Shown: positions 31,600-63,670 of the stretch, piece after piece
How the letters are laid out: each line of letters opens with the position of its first letter
Position numbering within the stretch: the first letter of the stretch is position 1
NCBI GenBank assembly: GCA_017501225.1
Contig: JAFVXH010000019.1
Coordinates: 1-64,000 of the forward strand
Direction: 5' to 3'
Length of the DNA: 64,000 nt
Origin: Clostridia bacterium
GTDB taxonomy: Bacteria > Bacillota > Clostridia > Oscillospirales > CAG-272
Translations under genes and position numbers: made by a program
Notes under the pieces: generated by a model
What the model was told of the DNA's origin: nothing
The model's database searches: none
What the model saw: only the letters and a program-made list of their open reading frames with translations

Positions 31600-31995
31600 T
31601 CAGACGCCGGGATAGCGGTTTTTGATGCCTTCGACCTTCGCGGGAAGCTGCATTTGCAGCGTAGAGATCGCGTCGGTATACAGCGAGAAGAGCTTATCGC
31701 TCAGGTCCTCGTTTTCCTCCAGAATCAGCATGGCGGCAAGATAATAGGTTACTGCCGGCACAAAGGGAGAACTCAAGGGGAACTCCTCGCTCATGGTAAC
31801 TGCGCAAGGAATGCTTTTTTCTGCGGGCGACGCGCCCTGCGTTGCTCGGTATCGGGTATCCAAAGGAAGGCATTCATTGCAAACCGTTGCAAGAAGATAC
31901 GGAGCGCGCGCGCCGTAATCCTCGCAGCATTCCGCGCTCTCATCCTCGCATACCATCAGGATGGCAGAGGTCAGAATATTCTGATAGGTGATCAT
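31600..31995 (-). CDS. putative head-tail adaptor-like protein
   Basis: 131 residues, mostly helical, with S-S-P-F-V-P-A-V-T-Y-Y-L-A-A-M-L followed by two helices. Size, helix pattern and place right after the coat gene fit P22 gp4-type or other small connector proteins that sit under the portal. No family was identified from sequence motifs. The coat gene ends six bases upstream. Last gene of the module. Confidence 0.55.
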   Translation of the reverse strand: MITYQNILTSAILMVCEDESAECCEDYGARAPYLLATVCNECLPLDTRYRATQGASPAEKSIPCAVTMSEEFPLSSPFVPAVTYYLAAMLILEENEDLSDKLFSLYTDAISTLQMQLPAKVEGIKNRYPGV

Positions 31996-32001
31996 GCTTG
32001 C

Positions 32002-32835
32002 TTACTCTGCGTTTCGGATCTCGATATCCAGACGAAGCAGCTCGTCGGGATAGATGATGGAGGCGCCGTAAATGTGAAGTCCCTTGATGGCGTCGGAGAA
32101 GAAGTTATCGGGACGGTAAGCGATGATCTCGGAAAGACGCTCCGCAAACGCCACGGCACGCTTGGTGCGCACGATGCAGTGGTAGTAGTTCCCGTCGTTG
32201 GGAGAAGCCGAATTTCTGACGTGGTTGGAGACGTAGATCTTGGAGCCCATGAAACGACCGACACAGCCGTTTTCAAAGGTTTCTCCATCACCGGTGAGCG
32301 TCAGCTTTGCCTTATAGATCAGCTCCGCAACCTCAGGGGAAACCTCAAAGACGACGTCCTCGGCGTTGCAAACGTTCTTCTTGAAGAGCGCGGTGCGTGC
32401 CGCAAGCAGTGCGTCCACGACGTTCTCGGCGGTGATCTGGTCCATGGTGATCACGTTCGGTGTGTCATTGAACATGCCGTAGAGATATTCCTCTGCCTGT
32501 TCGGCAAGAGAATCGGTTGCGCTCTTCAGCGCAAGCTTCATCAGTCCCTCGCTTGCCTGCGTTTTTTCCATATCGTCAAGCATGAAGTTGAAGCATTTGA
32601 CCTGGTCCGCGGTGAGGGTCTTGGTGTAGTTTGACAGAGTCGAGGGCGCCTCAAGTCCCATGACGGGATCATAGTCGCCGACTCCGACGCTGTAAAGGCC
32701 GCAGAGCTTGATCTGGGAGCCCTTGTTTTTGAGCTCATCGCTGTAAATGTGGGAACAGTTTGCAATGCCGACGTAGCGGCGCTCGAGCTCGGTGAGCAGT
32801 GTTTCGCTCCAGATAGTAGGGATAAAGTCGATCAT
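32002..32835 (-). CDS. major capsid (coat) protein
   Basis: 277 residues with features of P22/N4-like HK97-fold coat proteins: an N-terminal W-S-E-T-L-L-T-E-L-E-R-R, a central spine-helix stretch, and the late F-M-G-S-K-I-Y-V-S-N-H-V followed by A-V-A-F-A-E-R-L, typical of the A-domain. It follows the scaffold by 29 bp, as expected. No protease gene is near, consistent with P22-like maturation without cleavage. Confidence 0.8.
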   Translation of the reverse strand: MIDFIPTIWSETLLTELERRYVGIANCSHIYSDELKNKGSQIKLCGLYSVGVGDYDPVMGLEAPSTLSNYTKTLTADQVKCFNFMLDDMEKTQASEGLMKLALKSATDSLAEQAEEYLYGMFNDTPNVITMDQITAENVVDALLAARTALFKKNVCNAEDVVFEVSPEVAELIYKAKLTLTGDGETFENGCVGRFMGSKIYVSNHVRNSASPNDGNYYHCIVRTKRAVAFAERLSEIIAYRPDNFFSDAIKGLHIYGASIIYPDELLRLDIEIRNAE

Positions 32836-32864
32836 AATTTTTATAATCCTTTCTTATATTGTTT

Positions 32865-33554
32865 TTATTTCCATTTTTTCATGGATTGCAGAATTTTGGA
32901 GTAGTTTTTGTGCACCTCTGCCTGCGACATGACACGCACGTCATCCACGGAGAAGTACTCGGTTTCATCGCTTCGGACAATGCCGGCTGTGCGTGCCTGA
33001 TTGGCATTGTTGATGGCGCGTGCCTGATCCTTGGCAACTGCTTGCTTTTTTTCTTCCAGGGCGTAGGCGGCGGCAAGCGGAACGCCGCGCTTGACCTGCT
33101 CCCAAACACGGTCCGGGAGAGTATCCGGATCTGCTTCGGGATACAGGGTAGAGAATTCGATGTAATCCTCTCTCAGTCGCTGATTGCGAAGCTCGCGTGC
33201 TGCCAGCTCCTCCTTGAGCTGTGTCAGTTCACTTCGCAGCCTTGCAAGCTCATCTCCCTCATCGGTCGAAGGAGAGGTTCGAGGATCAGAATCAGAAGCT
33301 GGCAGGGAAGCTGAAGGAAGCTGACGATTTTGAGCAGCTTGCAGATCAGCTCCTTCTTCCGGGAGAGCAGCTGCTTCAGCGTTGGGATCCTCTTCTGCGG
33401 CACAGCGCTCTCCTCCGTCGTCTGCGAGAGGATCTCCAGATACATCGAGAACTCCCGAAGGAACTTCATCCGATGCCGATGCCAGATCGCCCTCTTGAAG
33501 GTTTTCCGGACTCTGATTTGGGAGAGTATGGTGAGTAATTTCTTCTTCATTCAT
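32865..33554 (-). CDS. scaffold protein
   Basis: 229 residues. A long acidic, low-complexity N-terminal half (Asp/Glu/Ala/Ser/Pro-rich) and a coiled-coil (about 100-135, L-R-S-E-L-T-Q-L-K-E-E-L-A-A-R) lead to a basic C-terminus ending M-K-K-W-K, as in capsid scaffolds whose basic tail binds coat protein. It starts inside the last codons of the portal gene (ATG within ...AATGAATGA), so translation is coupled. Confidence 0.72.
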   Translation of the reverse strand: MNEEEITHHTLPNQSPENLQEGDLASASDEVPSGVLDVSGDPLADDGGERCAAEEDPNAEAAALPEEGADLQAAQNRQLPSASLPASDSDPRTSPSTDEGDELARLRSELTQLKEELAARELRNQRLREDYIEFSTLYPEADPDTLPDRVWEQVKRGVPLAAAYALEEKKQAVAKDQARAINNANQARTAGIVRSDETEYFSVDDVRVMSQAEVHKNYSKILQSMKKWK

Positions 33555-35097
33555 TTTCTAAGGCTCCTTTATTTTGAATTTCTTGGATGAGCTGCTCGCG
33601 TCCGGCAATGCTTCCCGGGGGCAGCAGGCGAAGATATTGGGAAAGCTCCAGGTATCCACCCTCCAGCAGCTTGTCCAATACAAGGACCGTGCTTGCAGGT
33701 GTATAGCGGGTTGTTTTCCCGACCTCTGCAACGGCAGAAATCAGCTCATCACGAAGACGCCGGTAGTCGGCGCGCTCCGCACGCACTCCGTCCTCCGCAA
33801 GGATCGGGAGCAGGCGCTCGTTGGGGCAGTAGGTACAGATCATATCTGCCCAGATGGTTGCCAGCTCTCCGATGCAACGGCAGAATTGGCGCGTGACCTG
33901 TGCAAGACCGACGCGGGATGCCTCCTGCAATGCAAGGATCGCGCTGGTGTTATTTGCCTCGGCATCGCCCAGGGCAGATTCGGTTGCACCCATCATCGCC
34001 TTGGTGTTTTCGATGACGTTGTTCAAAAGAGCAAGATAGCCGTCCTGCATTTTCCCGACTCCCACGACCGAGATGGCGTCGGCAACGCTTCCGCCGCCGT
34101 TGGCGGCAATCGCCTCGCCCACCTCGTTGGACCATTCGGGAATGCGGGATTTGTCATAGATCACCTTGGAGAAGGCGGTATCACGCATATGCTTCATTGC
34201 CATCGCGTACGCGCCGTTGATGAATTTTTGATTGGCGATGATATCGCTGATAGGGGAGGTCCCGTGGAAGCAGTTTTTGGTCGGGATCCAGTTGAAATAC
34301 GCGATGGGATAATGACGCAATCCCGTGTTGAACCTGCGGAGCACACAGGTCTTGGTGGATTTTTCGCAGATGACCTCACCGTTCTCACGGAAGAAGCGCA
34401 GCAGATAGGTTGCTTTTTCCGCTCCCGATACGTCGGGCGTAGATGCTTGACTGAGCAGGTCGTCGGTCGTAGTGTCGTCGGCGGTGATCTTCTGGGCTTC
34501 CGTATGGCTCAGGCCTGCCTCCAGTGCCTCGCGGCGCAGGGAGGTTACCGTCGCTCTGCCTGCGAGCATGACGTAATCCTGACGCTGCAGCTCCGGCTGA
34601 TTGACGTCTGCAACGAACAGACCGGTGTTGTCGATGCAGTCCACGCGGATATCGCCAAGGTAGGGCTGTCCTCCTGTGACTTGGTCGTCCCAGTAGCAGT
34701 AGAAGATACCGTCGCCTGTGAGCGCGGCATTCAGAAGCGCCTGATATGCCAGCGCGTTCATGTGGTTTTGCTTCCAACGGTAGGAAGCGTTCTGTTCCAG
34801 CAGGCACAGCCCTTTTTGTACCGTTTCTCGCAGGACGGAGCTTTCCAAAAAGGGAAGCTTATCGTCAACGTAGTGGATGGAAACGTCCTCCGGCAGGACT
34901 GCGCCTACCAGATAATCGGTGATCCGTCGCACGACGTTGAAGACGGGGCGCGGGAGGTCGTAGTCACTCTGTGACCATTGATCTCCGCGGTAGAAGCGCT
35001 CGTTGGTATGTACGCGCTCGTACAGACCGATGCGGCGCTTGTACTCCTTTCCCGCTTCATACTGCTGCCATGCCGTGGTTTGTGTGTTGTGTTTCAT
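33547..35097 (-). CDS. portal protein (P22-like)
   Basis: 516 residues. Portal signatures include R-F-Y-R-G-D-Q-W, R-P-V-F-N-V-V-R-R-I-T-D-Y, a central G-D-G-I-F-Y-C-Y-W and a late helical stretch N-N-T-S-A-I-L-A-L-Q-E-A. The dodecameric portal forms the DNA entry vertex. The ATG at 35097 has AAAGGAG 4 nt upstream, and earlier in-frame starts overlap the upstream gene. Confidence 0.85.
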   Translation of the reverse strand: MKHNTQTTAWQQYEAGKEYKRRIGLYERVHTNERFYRGDQWSQSDYDLPRPVFNVVRRITDYLVGAVLPEDVSIHYVDDKLPFLESSVLRETVQKGLCLLEQNASYRWKQNHMNALAYQALLNAALTGDGIFYCYWDDQVTGGQPYLGDIRVDCIDNTGLFVADVNQPELQRQDYVMLAGRATVTSLRREALEAGLSHTEAQKITADDTTTDDLLSQASTPDVSGAEKATYLLRFFRENGEVICEKSTKTCVLRRFNTGLRHYPIAYFNWIPTKNCFHGTSPISDIIANQKFINGAYAMAMKHMRDTAFSKVIYDKSRIPEWSNEVGEAIAANGGGSVADAISVVGVGKMQDGYLALLNNVIENTKAMMGATESALGDAEANNTSAILALQEASRVGLAQVTRQFCRCIGELATIWADMICTYCPNERLLPILAEDGVRAERADYRRLRDELISAVAEVGKTTRYTPASTVLVLDKLLEGGYLELSQYLRLLPPGSIAGREQLIQEIQNKGALENE

Positions 35098-35138
35098 AGA
35101 ACTCCTTTCACTGTTGTATTGGTGGCATGATCGGTCGA

Positions 35139-36854
35139 TCATGCCTTCGTGTAGAGGGAGAGAGAATAAAAGCGGGAAGCTTCGTTGCCTGTGACCGAAA
35201 TACGGAAGCGCAGGAATCGGAATCTTCCGATCGGTACGCGTCGGTCAAAGCATTCAATGGGGGCGTCGTCCTTTCCGACAAGGGATAAGAATCTGGTTTC
35301 CTGCTCTGTCTGAAGTGTCAGATACGCGGTATTGCCGCCGCTTGTTCCGCAAAGGCAGGCACGCAGGGCACGTTTGACGGTTTCGGGCGAATCAAAGGTG
35401 AAATACTCGCTTTGATAGTACGCCTCAAAGGGAAGTCCGTTGTCAGTGTGGAGCTCCTCCCGGAATCGGCAAAGCTTTCCCTGATACAGAAATCCGCCGC
35501 CCAGATCATCCCAGAAGAAATCCCGCGCGGGGATATTGTCAAAGCAATACCACTGCTCGGTTCGGTTGTTTCTGACCCACACGAGCCCCTGCGCGTCGTT
35601 TGGATTGCGAAGCCATAGCTCGTCCTGATGGATATTGTAATAGAGCTCGGAGCGCGAAAGCGAAAGCTCGTCCAGACCCTCGCACAAGGGACAGTTGATC
35701 CGTGTCGCTTCAAATCGGTCGGGCTGGGTGATGATGGATTTCAAATGGTAAAGACCGGTTTTATCCAGCAGGACAAAGCCGTTCGGATAGGGGAGGACTC
35801 CGTGGCGGGAATTGCAGCCAAGACCGGTCAGAGCGACGTGTCCCTCCCACTGATCGCTCCCCTTGTCCTGCTCCAGGGCAAAGATGCCCTCGCTGTTGAA
35901 GGCGAGTACGCGGCGGAAATGCCGGCACATGGCGCGAACGGGATGCGCCGCGCTTCCGAAATAGCGAACGCTGCCTGGCGTCACGTAAATCGGATCTGTC
36001 ATGGGGTAAAAGACCTTGCAGTAGCTTTCCATATGATTCAGGACCGGTGTGGAGATAAAGATGGGATAGCCCTTTTTGCTGCCGAACAGAAAAACGGTAT
36101 CCGTGCCGTCGTCCTCGAAAACGAAGGACTCGGTGCAGCTAAGAAGATCTTCCGTCATTTCGTGGGTATACTCCATACGCATGGCGATCTCCACCGAGGA
36201 GGCACTTGCCGCCGCGGGGATCTCCACGCTATCTCCCAGCGCGGAGAGTGTATACTCCTGTACCGCGACGTTATCCAAGAGGACCTTGTCAACGGCTTTT
36301 GCGTAATAGGGAAGGTGGAATTTTGTGGTAGAAGTGGAGTTGAGATAATGGATGCGTAAACGATCGGTCAACAGATTAATGGGTTCTTTGGCGTTTCCGT
36401 AGTGCTGGGGATGCCAGTTCTCGCCGTAAAGAGGGGCATAGGGGATGACCTCGCGGAAGGTATCAGGCAAGGGAAGATAGATGCGAAGGGTGCTGCCGTC
36501 AAGAAGATAAAGCTCCCCCGCAAGCCGGAAGAAGGAAATTCTGGTTGCGGCGGTTCCCACGGTTCCGACCTGCCGGGGCTCGCTGTCATCCGTCAGGCGA
36601 TAGACGGTAGTACCCGCCACGACGAAGGTCGTGTTGACCCCTTCCAGCGTTCCTTGCCAAAATCCGCGGATGGTAGCGGAAAAACTGTAAACAGCCTCCC
36701 AGCCCCCTCTTTTTTCCAGCGTTCCGTCACAGCGAATACGGAAGTTCCGAATATCAGCGGCAGAGCTTTCCTTTTGGGAGCTTGCGCAGCGGATGCCGTC
36801 AAAGCCCGAAAAGATCTGCTTTGCCGTGGCTTGCTTTGGTTTGATTTTGGACAT
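35139..36854 (-). CDS. P22 gp10-like packaged-DNA stabilisation/tail hub protein
   Basis: 571 residues. The N-terminus F-S-G-F-D-G-I-R, then A-A-D-I-R-N-F-R-I-R-C-D-G-T-L-E-K-R-G-G, is the pattern seen at the start of beta-propeller hub proteins such as P22 gp10, which plugs the portal vertex after packaging. The remaining length is repeated beta-rich blade-like segments. The order here is unusual, between large terminase and portal rather than after the coat. A tail-fibre protein is the main alternative. Confidence 0.6.
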   Translation of the reverse strand: MSKIKPKQATAKQIFSGFDGIRCASSQKESSAADIRNFRIRCDGTLEKRGGWEAVYSFSATIRGFWQGTLEGVNTTFVVAGTTVYRLTDDSEPRQVGTVGTAATRISFFRLAGELYLLDGSTLRIYLPLPDTFREVIPYAPLYGENWHPQHYGNAKEPINLLTDRLRIHYLNSTSTTKFHLPYYAKAVDKVLLDNVAVQEYTLSALGDSVEIPAAASASSVEIAMRMEYTHEMTEDLLSCTESFVFEDDGTDTVFLFGSKKGYPIFISTPVLNHMESYCKVFYPMTDPIYVTPGSVRYFGSAAHPVRAMCRHFRRVLAFNSEGIFALEQDKGSDQWEGHVALTGLGCNSRHGVLPYPNGFVLLDKTGLYHLKSIITQPDRFEATRINCPLCEGLDELSLSRSELYYNIHQDELWLRNPNDAQGLVWVRNNRTEQWYCFDNIPARDFFWDDLGGGFLYQGKLCRFREELHTDNGLPFEAYYQSEYFTFDSPETVKRALRACLCGTSGGNTAYLTLQTEQETRFLSLVGKDDAPIECFDRRVPIGRFRFLRFRISVTGNEASRFYSLSLYTKA

Positions 36855-36926
36855 AGAGAATGTTGTTCCTTTCAATATGCTTTCAGAGTTGCAGATCCTT
36901 GTTTTTTCCGTGCACAGAAAAACGGA

Positions 36927-38261
36927 TCAAAACATCGGATTTGCTTTTTTGGGGAAGCGGAAGCACCGATCGGGATGCTCCTGCTCGGAGTAAGAGCTCG
37001 GGCGGCTCATGACTGCGTAGCGCAAGGCTTCGGGAGCGTGCGTGACGTCGTGCGGATCGCTTGCGGCATCCTCTCCGCGTACAGGATCGCAAAGCAGTGC
37101 CGGAAGACATCGGATCAATTCCGTGCAGGACGAACAGATGCGCAAAGATGGGGATCCGTCCGAGGAGTTGAGATACTCCCGTAGGATGCGCCAGCCTGCG
37201 ATCCGCCTGTCGTCTGCCCGACGCATGGGTGGCATTCCGTCCACCGCCTGCATGATCTCAAAGCCGCTTTTTCCCGTGTCCTGCCGTCGGTTCCAAAGAT
37301 CGGGAGAGGCGACGGCATATTCAACGCGAAAGCCTCGGCAGAGCGACGATACCTCGAGCGCCGCCTCACGCAGGGTCAGATTCGGTGTGCAAAGCTCTCG
37401 GATCACAAAAAGATTTCCTCGCCCGTCGACTCCCAAAAGGAGGGCGGCGAGCATGTCAAAGCCGTAATCGAACGCCGCGAAGTAGCGAAGCCGTGGCGGA
37501 ACGGAGGATGCGGGGAAGGTGTGCTGATCGACGGAAAATTCAGGGAAGAACTGTCCCTCGAATACATCCCAGCGACCGTACAGCCAGGCTTGCCGAAGCT
37601 TTTGCGGAAGGCTTTCTAAGGAGTGCACGTAGTCGGGATCTGCTTGCAGCAGAACGGGATTGTCGTAGACCTGCGCGGAAATAAAGCAGTAATCATCGGG
37701 ATTTTCATGCTCCCGATACGATCGGTCCACAAACAAGCGCTTGACCCACGCGTGTCCGATTCCTCCCGGGTTGCAGGTCAGATACATGCGTCTGGGTACG
37801 GCACCAACGCCTCGCAGACAGGCCTTAAAGATGGAAAACTGATATTCGCTCAGCTGCGTTGCCTCGTCGATGGCAATGATGTCGTATTCCTGACCCTGAT
37901 AGCGTAGCACGTCGCGGTTGGATGCACAGTATCCGAGAGCGATGCTGCTCCCATTGGGAAAGCAAAGCAATCGGTCGGATTCACGATAGGTCACGGCATC
38001 CCCAAGCTCTGTGAGCAAGGGGGTCAGATGGTTGCTTTTCAGCTCTCCTAAGGATCTGCGGATCAAAAGACAGCGAATGCCCGCATAGCGAAGGCAAAGA
38101 GCTGTCAGCTTGCGCCGCAACGCCCAGGATTTTCCGCCTCCGCGCGCACCTCCGTAGGCGGTATATCTTGCGCGGGATGCAAAAAAGAGCCGTTGCTTTT
38201 CCGTGGGAACACCGCGAATGCGCTTGACCTGCTCGGTTTGTGCCGGAGAAAGCGTGCTCAT
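36927..38261 (-). CDS. phage terminase large subunit
   Basis: 444 residues. The ATPase has Walker A G-G-A-R-G-G-G-K-S (37-45), Walker B I-I-A-I-D-E-A-T (128-135) and coupling motif L-T-C-N-P. The RNase-H-like nuclease keeps Asp265 (A-F-D-Y-G), Asp321 (A-S-P-D-L-W) and Asp405 with His408 (D-P-H-D-V-T-H). Both activities look intact. It pumps DNA into the capsid and cuts it. It overlaps the small-terminase gene by 4 bp. Confidence 0.92.
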   Translation of the reverse strand: MSTLSPAQTEQVKRIRGVPTEKQRLFFASRARYTAYGGARGGGKSWALRRKLTALCLRYAGIRCLLIRRSLGELKSNHLTPLLTELGDAVTYRESDRLLCFPNGSSIALGYCASNRDVLRYQGQEYDIIAIDEATQLSEYQFSIFKACLRGVGAVPRRMYLTCNPGGIGHAWVKRLFVDRSYREHENPDDYCFISAQVYDNPVLLQADPDYVHSLESLPQKLRQAWLYGRWDVFEGQFFPEFSVDQHTFPASSVPPRLRYFAAFDYGFDMLAALLLGVDGRGNLFVIRELCTPNLTLREAALEVSSLCRGFRVEYAVASPDLWNRRQDTGKSGFEIMQAVDGMPPMRRADDRRIAGWRILREYLNSSDGSPSLRICSSCTELIRCLPALLCDPVRGEDAASDPHDVTHAPEALRYAVMSRPSSYSEQEHPDRCFRFPKKANPMF

Positions 38262-38671
38262 ACGCCGTCCTCCAGAATGTCGTGCTCAAATACAAGGCGA
38301 AGCTGTCCGCACTCGGCAGAGGTGGTGGCTTCGCTTTTTTCTCCGTAGCCCAGACGCTTTTTCAGATAAGCGGTAAGGACCGTGGGAGAAAGCTCTGCGT
38401 TGAGTGCCTCATCCTCCAGAACGGTGCAGATGCGGTCGTAAAGAGTGGGCTGCGAGTGACGCAAGCTCTCGATCCAACCAAGCCCCTCTCCCAACCGACG
38501 GCAAAAGCCGGCAAGATTGGGGAAGACGGAAGCCTTCTTTTTATTTGGTTCTTGCACGCTGTGACAGCTATCCAGATAGCTCTGCAATGCGTCCAACAGC
38601 ATAGGAGTCTCTCCCTCTGCATCCTCGCGCCCGTTGATTTCTTGTGCTTCGTTGCGCTCAAAGTGATTCAA
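38258..38671 (-). CDS. small terminase-like DNA-packaging protein
   Basis: 137 residues, starting at TTG with AGGAGGTGAT well placed upstream. The middle contains a helical domain (F-C-R-R-L-G-E-G-L-G-W-I-E-S-L-R-H-S) and then V-L-T-A-Y-L-K-K-R-L-G-Y-G, typical of small terminase subunits that recognise packaging sites. First gene of the module. Confidence 0.65.
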   Translation of the reverse strand: MNHFERNEAQEINGREDAEGETPMLLDALQSYLDSCHSVQEPNKKKASVFPNLAGFCRRLGEGLGWIESLRHSQPTLYDRICTVLEDEALNAELSPTVLTAYLKKRLGYGEKSEATTSAECGQLRLVFEHDILEDGV

Positions 38672-38741
38672 AGGTTATCACCTCCTGTTTTCTCTGTGCA
38701 AGCAAAGTGTACCCCCAAAAAGCGTGACGAAAGATGCCTGC

Positions 38742-38759
38742 GTGTGCCAAGGTGTGCCA
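38742..38759 (-). promoter_or_regulatory. direct repeat upstream of the phage head module
   Basis: On the minus strand TGGCACAC occurs twice with a 10-bp period, upstream of the start of the small-terminase gene. A TACACT (38711-38706) could be a -10 but lacks a good -35, so the repeat may be an activator or repressor site. Confidence 0.4.
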
Positions 38760-40566: not shown

Positions 40567-40649
40567 GCGGGTATGGCGGAATTGGCAGACGCGCAAGATT
40601 TAGGATCTTGTGTTAATTCGTGCAGGTTCGACCCCTGTTACCCGCACCA
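40567..40649 (+). tRNA. tRNA-Leu (TAG anticodon)
   Basis: An 83-nt class II tRNA with encoded CCA. Acceptor GCGGGTA/TACCCGC, anticodon stem CAAGA/TCTTG enclosing TTTAGGA (anticodon TAG), an extended variable arm, and T-arm with GGTTCGACC. It reads CUA/CUN leucine codons. Confidence 0.95.
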
Positions 40650-40931
40650 AGAAAAAGGGATACGCCTTTTGGCGTATCCCTATTTCTTCGATGTGAATAA
40701 TAGGAACGAGAAACGAAACCGCAAATGTCAATTTGCTCTGTAACGCCGCAGGCGTTATTTGTGCAGTTGTTCGACCCCTGTTACCCGCACCAAAGAGCAA
40801 GGCGCTCCTTCTGGAGTGCCTTGCTCTTTTATGTAGGTAATAGGAACGAGAAGCGAAACCGCAAATTACAAATTTGCACGGTAACGCCGCAGGCGTTATA
40901 AGTGCTACGTTCGCCCCTTGTATCAAGCTTC
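40620..40931 (+). repeat. 141-bp tandem tRNA-tail repeats after tRNA-Leu
   Basis: Units begin at 40620, 40761 and 40902, exactly 141 bp apart. Each begins with the tRNA 3' end (GTGCAG, TTCGACCCCTGTTACCCGCACCA); the third copy is degenerate and partial. After each full copy comes a terminator palindrome (GGGATACGCC/GGCGTATCCC, then GAGCAAGGC/GCCTTGCTC) and then a shared block with TAGGAACGAGAA, CGAAACCGCAAAT and GTAACGCCGCAGGCGTTAT. There is no convincing coding frame. Confidence 0.88.
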
Positions 40932-41044: not shown

Positions 41045-42766
41045 ATGAAGGAACAGAAAAAAGCGAAGCAGGCAACAGGCTTGCAGATTACACTTTTAAT
41101 CGTTGGCATCCTCGTTCTGGTTGCGCTGATTCTCAATCTTGCACAGGGCGGTGTCTGGATCATCGAGGGACTGAACGGCAAGGACGGTCAGGACGGAAAG
41201 GATGGTCAAAACGGTCAGATCGGTCAGGACGGTCAGGACGGAGCCGATGGCAAGAGCGCTTATGAGCTTGCCGTACAAAACGGATTTTCGGGCTCTCTGC
41301 ATGAATGGCTCCTCTCCCTGGCAGTTCAGGGAGGTATGGGACCTGCAGGCCCTGCGGGCAGCACGGGCGTCGGCATTTCCGACGTTTATCTGGACGGGGA
41401 AGGGCACCTGATGGTCAAGCTCTCCAACGGGCAGCTGATCGATGCGGGGTACGTCGGTTCCTCAGACGGCATTTCGGACAAGGTGGACGAGATGGGATTT
41501 TTGGAAACCTACGAGATCGTCGTCAAGAACGGACGCAATACTACCATCTATCTGCGCCTCTCTCCCGATCTTGAAAACGGTGAGATCTATACCACCGTCA
41601 CCGAGGGGGATGAGCTCTTGCGCATCGGCATTCAGGAGGATGAGGCAACCGGATTCAGCCGCTTTCTGTATAACGGCGTGGTGTGCTACGCACGCACAGC
41701 CAATTTTGACCGCAAATATCAGTATGACGGAAAAATGCCGAGCGTCAATTTGCCTGCGAGCATGGTCCTGACACAAAACGAGCAGACCTGGTTTATTACG
41801 GATCAGATCGTATCGGGGCTTTCTCCGGATCTGACCGTCACCTATTCCTACACGGGTGCGGGCACACGCGTTTTCAACGGCAGTGAGTCCTTTGCCATCA
41901 CCCCCACCGCTCTTGGAGAGGCAACTCTGACGCTTACGGTCCAAACGGTGGACGAGGGCGTTTTGCAGACCGTTTATCGCCAAAGCGTTGCCATCACGGT
42001 CGTCGCCAAAAAATCCGAGCTTGCCCTGACGGGACTTTTGATCGGAGATAGCCGCATCTCGGACGGCGCGATCCTTTCGAAATTAAAGACGGATCTGCCG
42101 AATTTAACGCTCCTTGGCACAAGGCAGGTCAAAAACAGCGGTATCTCACACGAGGGACGCGGCGCGTGGAGCACCGCGGATTACCTGACGAAGCCTTCCG
42201 TTGACGTGGCGGGCACAAGCCTTACCAATCCCTTTTACAATCCCGCGACCGGCGGATTTGATTTTACATACTATATGCAGTCGTCGCAGTACGATAGCAA
42301 AAAACTTGATTTCGTGGTTTTGAATCTGGGCGCGAACGACGGTTATTCTGCCGATTCCGCCAAAAATCTGAATACGATGGTAGCCTCGATTCAGGCTTAC
42401 GCGCAGAGCAAGGGATATGTGATCCGCATTTTCGTGATGAGCGAATACCTCTCTCCCGCTGACGGATATTACCTGCAGCAGGAAACGAATATCAACGTAC
42501 ACAGCCTGAGAGCTAGGCAGTTTGCGTATTTTTCCTACCTTGACGAGCAGTTTGCAAATCGTGAGGCAGAGGGCATTTATCTTTTGCCGAATTACCTGAG
42601 CATTGATTCCTTCGGGGATCGTGTCACGGGACAGATTCAGAGCGCTCAAGGCTTCCAAATCGGAATTACGGATGTCATCCATTTGGGCACGCAGGGCTAT
42701 TATAAGGAAGCGCAGATGATCGAGTCCTATCTCTATTGGCTGTTCGGAGCCGAAAAACAAACGTAA
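41045..42766 (+). CDS. membrane-anchored SGNH hydrolase with collagen-like stalk
   Basis: 573 residues. An N-terminal transmembrane anchor (about 13-35) is followed by Gly-X-Y triplets (about 42-69, G-K-D-G-Q-D-G-K-D and so on) forming a short collagen-like stalk, with more G-P-A-G-P-A-G near 100. A middle beta-rich region leads to a SGNH esterase domain with G-D-S at 334-336 (Ser336), G-A-N-D-G and D-V-I-H (Asp543, His546). It should act outside the membrane, perhaps removing acyl groups from glycans. The heparinase-like lyase gene follows 12 bp later. Confidence 0.87.
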   Translation: MKEQKKAKQATGLQITLLIVGILVLVALILNLAQGGVWIIEGLNGKDGQDGKDGQNGQIGQDGQDGADGKSAYELAVQNGFSGSLHEWLLSLAVQGGMGPAGPAGSTGVGISDVYLDGEGHLMVKLSNGQLIDAGYVGSSDGISDKVDEMGFLETYEIVVKNGRNTTIYLRLSPDLENGEIYTTVTEGDELLRIGIQEDEATGFSRFLYNGVVCYARTANFDRKYQYDGKMPSVNLPASMVLTQNEQTWFITDQIVSGLSPDLTVTYSYTGAGTRVFNGSESFAITPTALGEATLTLTVQTVDEGVLQTVYRQSVAITVVAKKSELALTGLLIGDSRISDGAILSKLKTDLPNLTLLGTRQVKNSGISHEGRGAWSTADYLTKPSVDVAGTSLTNPFYNPATGGFDFTYYMQSSQYDSKKLDFVVLNLGANDGYSADSAKNLNTMVASIQAYAQSKGYVIRIFVMSEYLSPADGYYLQQETNINVHSLRARQFAYFSYLDEQFANREAEGIYLLPNYLSIDSFGDRVTGQIQSAQGFQIGITDVIHLGTQGYYKEAQMIESYLYWLFGAEKQT

Positions 42767-63621: not shown

Positions 63622-63630
63622 ATACCCAGA

Positions 63631-63670
63631 GTGGTGGAAAGTGGAGCAAAATGTAGCGAAGTGGAGCGAT
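63631..63670 (+). promoter_or_regulatory. MraZ-type operator repeats
   Basis: Four decamers in register: GTGGTGGAAA, GTGGAGCAAA, ATGTAGCGAA and GTGGAGCGAT. MraZ binds short G-rich repeats spaced by one helical turn in front of its own operon, so autoregulation is likely. Confidence 0.75.

Follow-up and report, generated by a model that had tools for sequence, protein, structure and literature searches.

A seven-gene podovirus-like packaging operon of gut Clostridia, probably a reduced and vertically inherited gene transfer agent-like element

We analysed a 64,000-nt stretch of the genome of a Clostridia bacterium (hereafter the window), in which an earlier note had reported seven adjacent, intact phage-type genes at 31600-38671. 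These were confirmed as seven intact, co-directional open reading frames on the minus strand. From 38671 down to 31600 the order is TerS, TerL, nozzle, portal, scaffold, coat and adaptor. The short gaps and overlaps between the genes (-4, 51, -4, -8, 29 and 6 nt) indicate that they form one operon. The genes and the promoter elements upstream of them are the following:

38720..38759, minus strand: four tandem 10-bp boxes (TGGCAC, TGGCAC, AGGCAT, CGTCAC) upstream of the operon, a proposed activator site
38706..38711, minus strand: -10 element TACACT, downstream of the four-box array
38258..38671, minus strand: small terminase TerS, 137 aa, TTG start; family conserved in 22 loci
36927..38261, minus strand: large terminase TerL, 444 aa; phrog_979, 1.5e-45; ATPase and nuclease residues kept
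35139..36875, minus strand: tail-nozzle protein (P22 gp10 / T7 gp12 fold), 578 aa; assigned by AF2 model and structure comparison
33547..35142, minus strand: P22-type portal protein, 531 aa; PF16510, 1.3e-16, and phrog_156, 4.9e-25
32865..33554, minus strand: scaffold-like protein, 229 aa, between portal and coat; family conserved in related loci
32002..32835, minus strand: major coat protein, 277 aa; phrog_267, 6e-36
31600..31995, minus strand: head-to-tail adaptor (P22 gp4 / Sf6 gp7 fold), 131 aa; assigned by AF2 model and VIA

The TerS gene directly precedes that of TerL, with a 4-nt overlap; its product had no match in the profile libraries and matched no solved structure by sequence. The TerL motifs, previously read as intact, proved to be invariant in 22 homologues: Walker A, Walker B (D132 E133), D265, D321 and D398. 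This invariance of the ATPase and nuclease residues indicates that DNA packaging is what selection keeps. The scaffold-like protein gave a weak profile match (phrog_14606, 2.2e-4). The coat, part of a capsid module described before as P22-like, is closest in sequence to a gp6-type coat (PDB 8e16, 3.8e-43 by profile) and not to that of P22.

The two remaining proteins were assigned through structure. By profile, the nozzle had a weak match to virion proteins only. Its AlphaFold model, obtained with the window protein and relatives (AF2 pLDDT 88.8), aligned to P22 gp10 with a Z of 21.4 over 425 residues (best Z overall 25.0), and Foldseek gave a best E of 1e-20 (5e-17 for P22 gp10). The adaptor, modelled in the same way (AF2 pLDDT 89.7), matched P22 gp4 with a VIA Z of about 10 over 117 residues; 31 phage adaptors stood on top of the VIA ranking and the next fold down was at Z 5.1. 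From these models, the gp4-like adaptor and the gp10-like nozzle are predicted to make up a stub tail, so that the set would correspond to a head plus a portal-adaptor-nozzle vertex, more than a capsid. The module had been called tail-less and devoid of other phage functions. This holds for integrase, lysis and fibre genes, none of which was seen near the module, but not for the tail hub, since adaptor and nozzle are both encoded.

The module lies between chromosomal genes, as had been stated, with gpr, spoIIP, radC and an XRE-S24 regulator on one side and a flavin reductase, an ICMT-like gene and a tRNA-Leu on the other. No att-like direct repeats bracketing the module were found. The neighbouring XRE-S24 repressor and RadC were considered as parts of the element and rejected, as they are not conserved beside the module in relatives. 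The tRNA-Leu(tag) region (window 40567-40793) contains an exact 25-nt copy of the 3′ end of the tRNA, 143 nt further on, as well as imperfect repeats of 50 nt and 35 nt about 140 bp apart, as might be left by a partial tandem duplication or by an old insertion. The protein encoded at window 41045-42766 (573 aa) is membrane-anchored, contains collagen-like Gly-x-Asp repeats and matched nothing in Pfam.

Relatives of TerL were detected in 218 of the 295 host-family genomes sampled (59 of 71 genera), mostly in single copy and with no stop codons listed; matches above about 53% identity correspond to the seven-gene layout or its rearrangements, while those below about 50-53% include related elements with other layouts and other coats. 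A scan of named genomes yielded 80 loci from rumen and gut Clostridia MAGs, nearly all carrying the module where the contig was long enough, and all seven members could be recognised together in dozens of loci; the genomes are draft MAGs, and contamination and contig breaks affect these presence counts. The earlier note had proposed a search for the same seven genes at the same locus in related genomes. The gene set does recur, but its chromosomal site differs between species. The flanks of the window are not common to the other species sampled in the genus; both flanks are common to the relatives L032/L036, and the neighbourhood only in L034/L035, L042/L047 and L046/L050. In IMG/VR, TerL relatives of 59% identity or more were confined to contigs of about 10 kb or less.

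Elements with TerL and portal genes and with different coats (classes B and C, L056-L070) exist in other genera of the family. These are apparently present at about one per genome within a genus and may be further domesticated elements. In one class-B element, from IMG/VR 2775506834_000003 (L538, reverse complement 927-1250), TGGCAC boxes are contained in each of two repeats of roughly 230 bp that precede TerL by about 2.6 kb.

We compared the divergence of the module with that of its hosts. TerL distances correlated with rpoB distances over 26 genomes (r 0.787, matched by 0 of 5000 permutations), and r was 0.714 after removal of two sister-clade genomes and 0.709 within the genus. The correlation is as high as that between two housekeeping genes (alaS versus rpoB, r 0.769). 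In a 21-genome subset, r against rpoB was 0.889 for the portal, 0.843 for TerL, 0.825 for the nozzle and 0.697 for TerS; the coat reached 0.43 (11 of 5000 permutations), and this weaker tracking of the host possibly reflects some exchange. The TerL and rpoB trees had 13 of 23 splits in common, against a maximum of 3 after shuffling. The module thus descends vertically while its chromosomal position shifts. The dN/dS ratios, whose computation had also been suggested, point to purifying selection over all seven genes (0.09-0.30): about 0.09 for TerS and portal, 0.10 for TerL, 0.11 for the coat, 0.16 for the adaptor, 0.21 for the nozzle and 0.30 for the scaffold, as computed in close pairs that are not all independent.

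A coat profile search extended the picture to the whole order, with matches in 110 of 394 genomes, nearly always in one copy. Scores cluster by host family (about 1e-110 in family f17, 1e-65 in f19 and 1e-43 in f20). The coat was present in 21 of 22 f17 genomes, including 11 of 11 good ones, and in 42 of 63 f20 genomes, where 8 of 13 genera are carriers and the gene is near-fixed inside carrier genera. Two sister genera within the host family of the window (L051, L053 and relatives) show the arrangement TerS-TerL-portal-scaffold-coat-adaptor-nozzle. Next come genes for XhlA-like and holin-like proteins, an amidase-LysM endolysin, a glycine-rich fibre-like protein and a coiled-coil protein. The last of these is also encoded 3′ of the nozzle gene in families f17 and f20. 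Fibres of the sister genera and of f17 have their N-terminus in common, and f20 has two extra small membrane-type proteins. Tail or lysis genes of the same phage nearby had been named as what would refute domestication; they are present in the same element in the sister lineages but were not found in this lineage. In several f17 loci (L423-L428), a capsid, fibre and coiled-coil cluster was seen with no recognised TerL or TerS alongside; the terminase may be elsewhere or replaced.

Whole genomes were then searched with profiles built on the fibre N-terminus and on the coiled-coil protein. The controls were detected at E-values of 1e-28 to 1e-76 (fibre in G013, G123 and G400; coiled-coil in G013, G123, G321 and G400). 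Neither the genome of the window nor 17 others of the seven-gene lineage gave a significant match; one marginal match (0.003) occurred in G216. In the reduced set, the nozzle gene is relocated beside TerL, between TerL and portal, and this arrangement is common to the genera of the seven-gene lineage, indicating that the reduction is old. Non-homologous fibre and lysis replacements in the reduced lineage are possible. A second operon in the window's own genome was sought with the XhlA-like, coiled-coil and fibre profiles, which gave nothing significant. A weak amidase match there stands alone between chromosomal genes, lepA-like and rsmI-like as judged by inspection.

The region upstream of the operon provided a further distinction between the two forms. 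Of 84 distinct regions upstream of the module, 63 contained the four-box array with its -10 element, and none of 252 shuffles scored as high; box 4 and the -10 are separated by 12 nt in 60 of the 63 and by 13 nt in the other 3. Among the same 84 regions, 13 have a LexA box, 8 have neither and none has both. The LexA-type box (GAAC-N4-GTTC) was found in 15 of 103 upstream regions versus 1.05 expected, and belongs to full-form loci. LexA control appears to have been replaced by the conserved four-box promoter in the reduced lineage. The sequence of the boxes varies by lineage (TGGCAC, TGAGAC, TGGCAG, TGGTAC and others) around a fixed geometry, as expected of a co-evolving DNA-binding protein. 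A pac site bound by TerS is a minor alternative for the four boxes; with the distance to the -10 constant at 12 nt, a promoter is the better reading. No second four-box array (score 19 or more) was found in 1.24 Mb of the window's own genome (about 70%), and a motif scan of viral contigs gave mostly noise. Four 10-bp tandem AGTGGAGC-type repeats also lie upstream of mraZ at window 63629-63668, downstream of a TATAAT; their geometry is like that of the module boxes, but the sequence and the side of the -10 differ.

Taken together, these data make it likely that the module is a domesticated, vertically inherited GTA-like element of podovirus origin, here reduced to its packaging core. Of the possibilities raised in the earlier note, a domesticated DNA-packaging particle has thereby gained strong support, from vertical inheritance, single copy, purifying selection and a dedicated promoter. 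The computed support comprises the gene identities, the vertical descent, the purifying selection, the promoter architecture and the absence of fibre and coiled-coil homologues. In the proposed mechanism, an activator would bind the four 10-bp boxes and the seven genes would be transcribed as one operon. A small procapsid would form on the portal from coat and scaffold, the terminase would pump DNA into it, presumably random chromosomal DNA and by headful, and the gp4-like adaptor and gp10-like nozzle would then seal the portal vertex, serving as a stub tail. We infer that particles are produced and package host DNA, and that this DNA may, by one route or another or not at all, be released from the cell and delivered. 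Weighing against this explanation, no release or delivery machinery (fibre, lysis or ejection genes) was found for this lineage, coat distances track the host less well, and the chromosomal site of the module differs between species of the genus.

The module resembles P22 and Sf6 in its portal family, gp4-like adaptor and gp10-like nozzle. The P22 gene order is TerS-TerL-portal-scaffold-coat-gp4-gp10; a P22-like order is kept in the sister clades, whereas here the nozzle gene has moved between TerL and portal. Unlike P22 and Sf6, the module has no needle, tailspike, ejection, lysis, replication or integration genes, and its coat is nearer the gp6 type. A P22-like phage or prophage would have a complete tail and ejection, lysis and replication functions; only the adaptor and the nozzle are at the locus.

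GTAs are characterised by particle proteins derived from caudoviricetes, full endogenisation, often at several loci, and mostly vertical inheritance; in addition, they package mostly random host DNA in a head too small for their own genome and deliver it (PMC9662315). At the level of genes, caudoviricete descent is seen here for TerL, portal and coat by profile and for adaptor and nozzle by fold. The flanks are chromosomal in the window and in related loci, and the module co-diverges with its hosts. Co-divergence, no mobility genes and a dedicated promoter together fit the vertical-descent and endogenisation criteria (PMC9662315). With RcGTA-type GTAs (viriforms, PMC9662315) the module has in common endogenised caudoviricete genes, co-divergence with hosts and selection on the genes; unlike them, it is podovirus-like and not siphovirus-like, and its packaging and delivery of DNA are putative.

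On our best reading, the closest known case is probably FpGTA of Faecalibacterium, a cousin in kind (Borodovich et al. 2026). FpGTA forms 40-nm particles with no visible tails containing about 9 kb of DNA; ten ORFs make up FpGTA I, a second operon encodes baseplate, fibre, holin and endolysin, and the element is near-ubiquitous in its genus and without DNA replication genes (PMC12946183). Compared by description, both are chromosomal podovirus-like operons with TerS, TerL, portal, scaffold and coat in gut Clostridia hosts. They differ in that particles and packaged DNA were shown for FpGTA, while seven genes and a four-box promoter are what is seen here. The DNA in the FpGTA head is about 9 kb, against 7.1 kb for the present module. 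As to a counterpart of the second operon of FpGTA, no fibre or coiled-coil homologue of the sister-clade type was found here, and non-homologous genes are possible.

This comparison bears on two forms of the preferred GTA-like reading. Possibly, the element is a minimal host-run packaging machine that shed the fibre, coiled-coil and lysis genes in one lineage, kept seven genes for packaging and the vertex under selection across about a dozen host genera and exchanged LexA for the four-box promoter, its DNA leaving the cell or being used inside it. Alternatively, it might be a GTA with a full toolkit whose tail-fibre and lysis genes are non-homologous and lie at a second locus, as with FpGTA I and II; we regard this as possible, but would not expect it. 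FpGTA, with its operon II at a distance of about 125 kb (PMC12946183), is a precedent, the promoter scan covered about 70% of the genome, and non-homologous genes would escape the profiles used. It has to be set against the single four-box promoter in 1.24 Mb and the missing sister-clade homologues in 18 lineage genomes where the controls were detected. A rival reading, which we find unlikely, is a domesticated particle with another job than gene transfer, either antibacterial (PBSX-like) or an intracellular DNA compartment. The genome-wide absence of the sister-clade fibre and coiled-coil proteins would suit it, as would the fact that no lysis cassette was found, and the remaining evidence for domestication fits it equally; however, the invariant TerL residues place DNA packaging under selection, and a particle made for killing would usually be expected to carry a fibre or spike.

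Head and packaging genes with no complete tail also characterise capsid-forming PICIs, and a cf-PICI-like satellite could borrow the tail of a helper phage, its nozzle and adaptor docking helper parts; the absence of fibres and the variable location between species would agree with this. Yet no integrase was seen around the module, where such satellites have integrase and att sites, and among 127 flanking proteins no integrase or tail family is included in the 25 commonest matches of 103 families, a tally in which an isolated, rare phage gene in one of the flanks might go unnoticed. Neither phage-type regulation nor any regulator conserved with the module was found, and there are no bracketing repeats. 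The module is inherited vertically in single copy, congruent with rpoB and near-fixed in whole genera. The helper-dependent satellite suggested before is on these grounds very improbable. Still harder to credit is a recent or decaying prophage remnant. The genes all derive from phages, and a large part of a phage is absent, but the same set occurs in many genera with intact frames and dN/dS well below 1, co-diverges with the hosts and keeps a conserved promoter; together with the single copy, this excludes the very recent remnant of the earlier note.

Podovirus-like GTAs were first reported in 2026, in one genus. The present data suggest that several families within an order of gut Clostridia have inherited elements of this kind vertically; if so, host-run DNA packaging would be a long-standing route of gene flow there. 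The sister lineages offer a natural gradation between the complete element and its packaging core, with SOS-type regulation giving way to a dedicated one; the four-box promoter, being conserved, is a handle for finding the regulator and the inducing conditions. Should the seven genes be a minimal machine, the question raised is what purpose a fibre-less packaging particle would serve.
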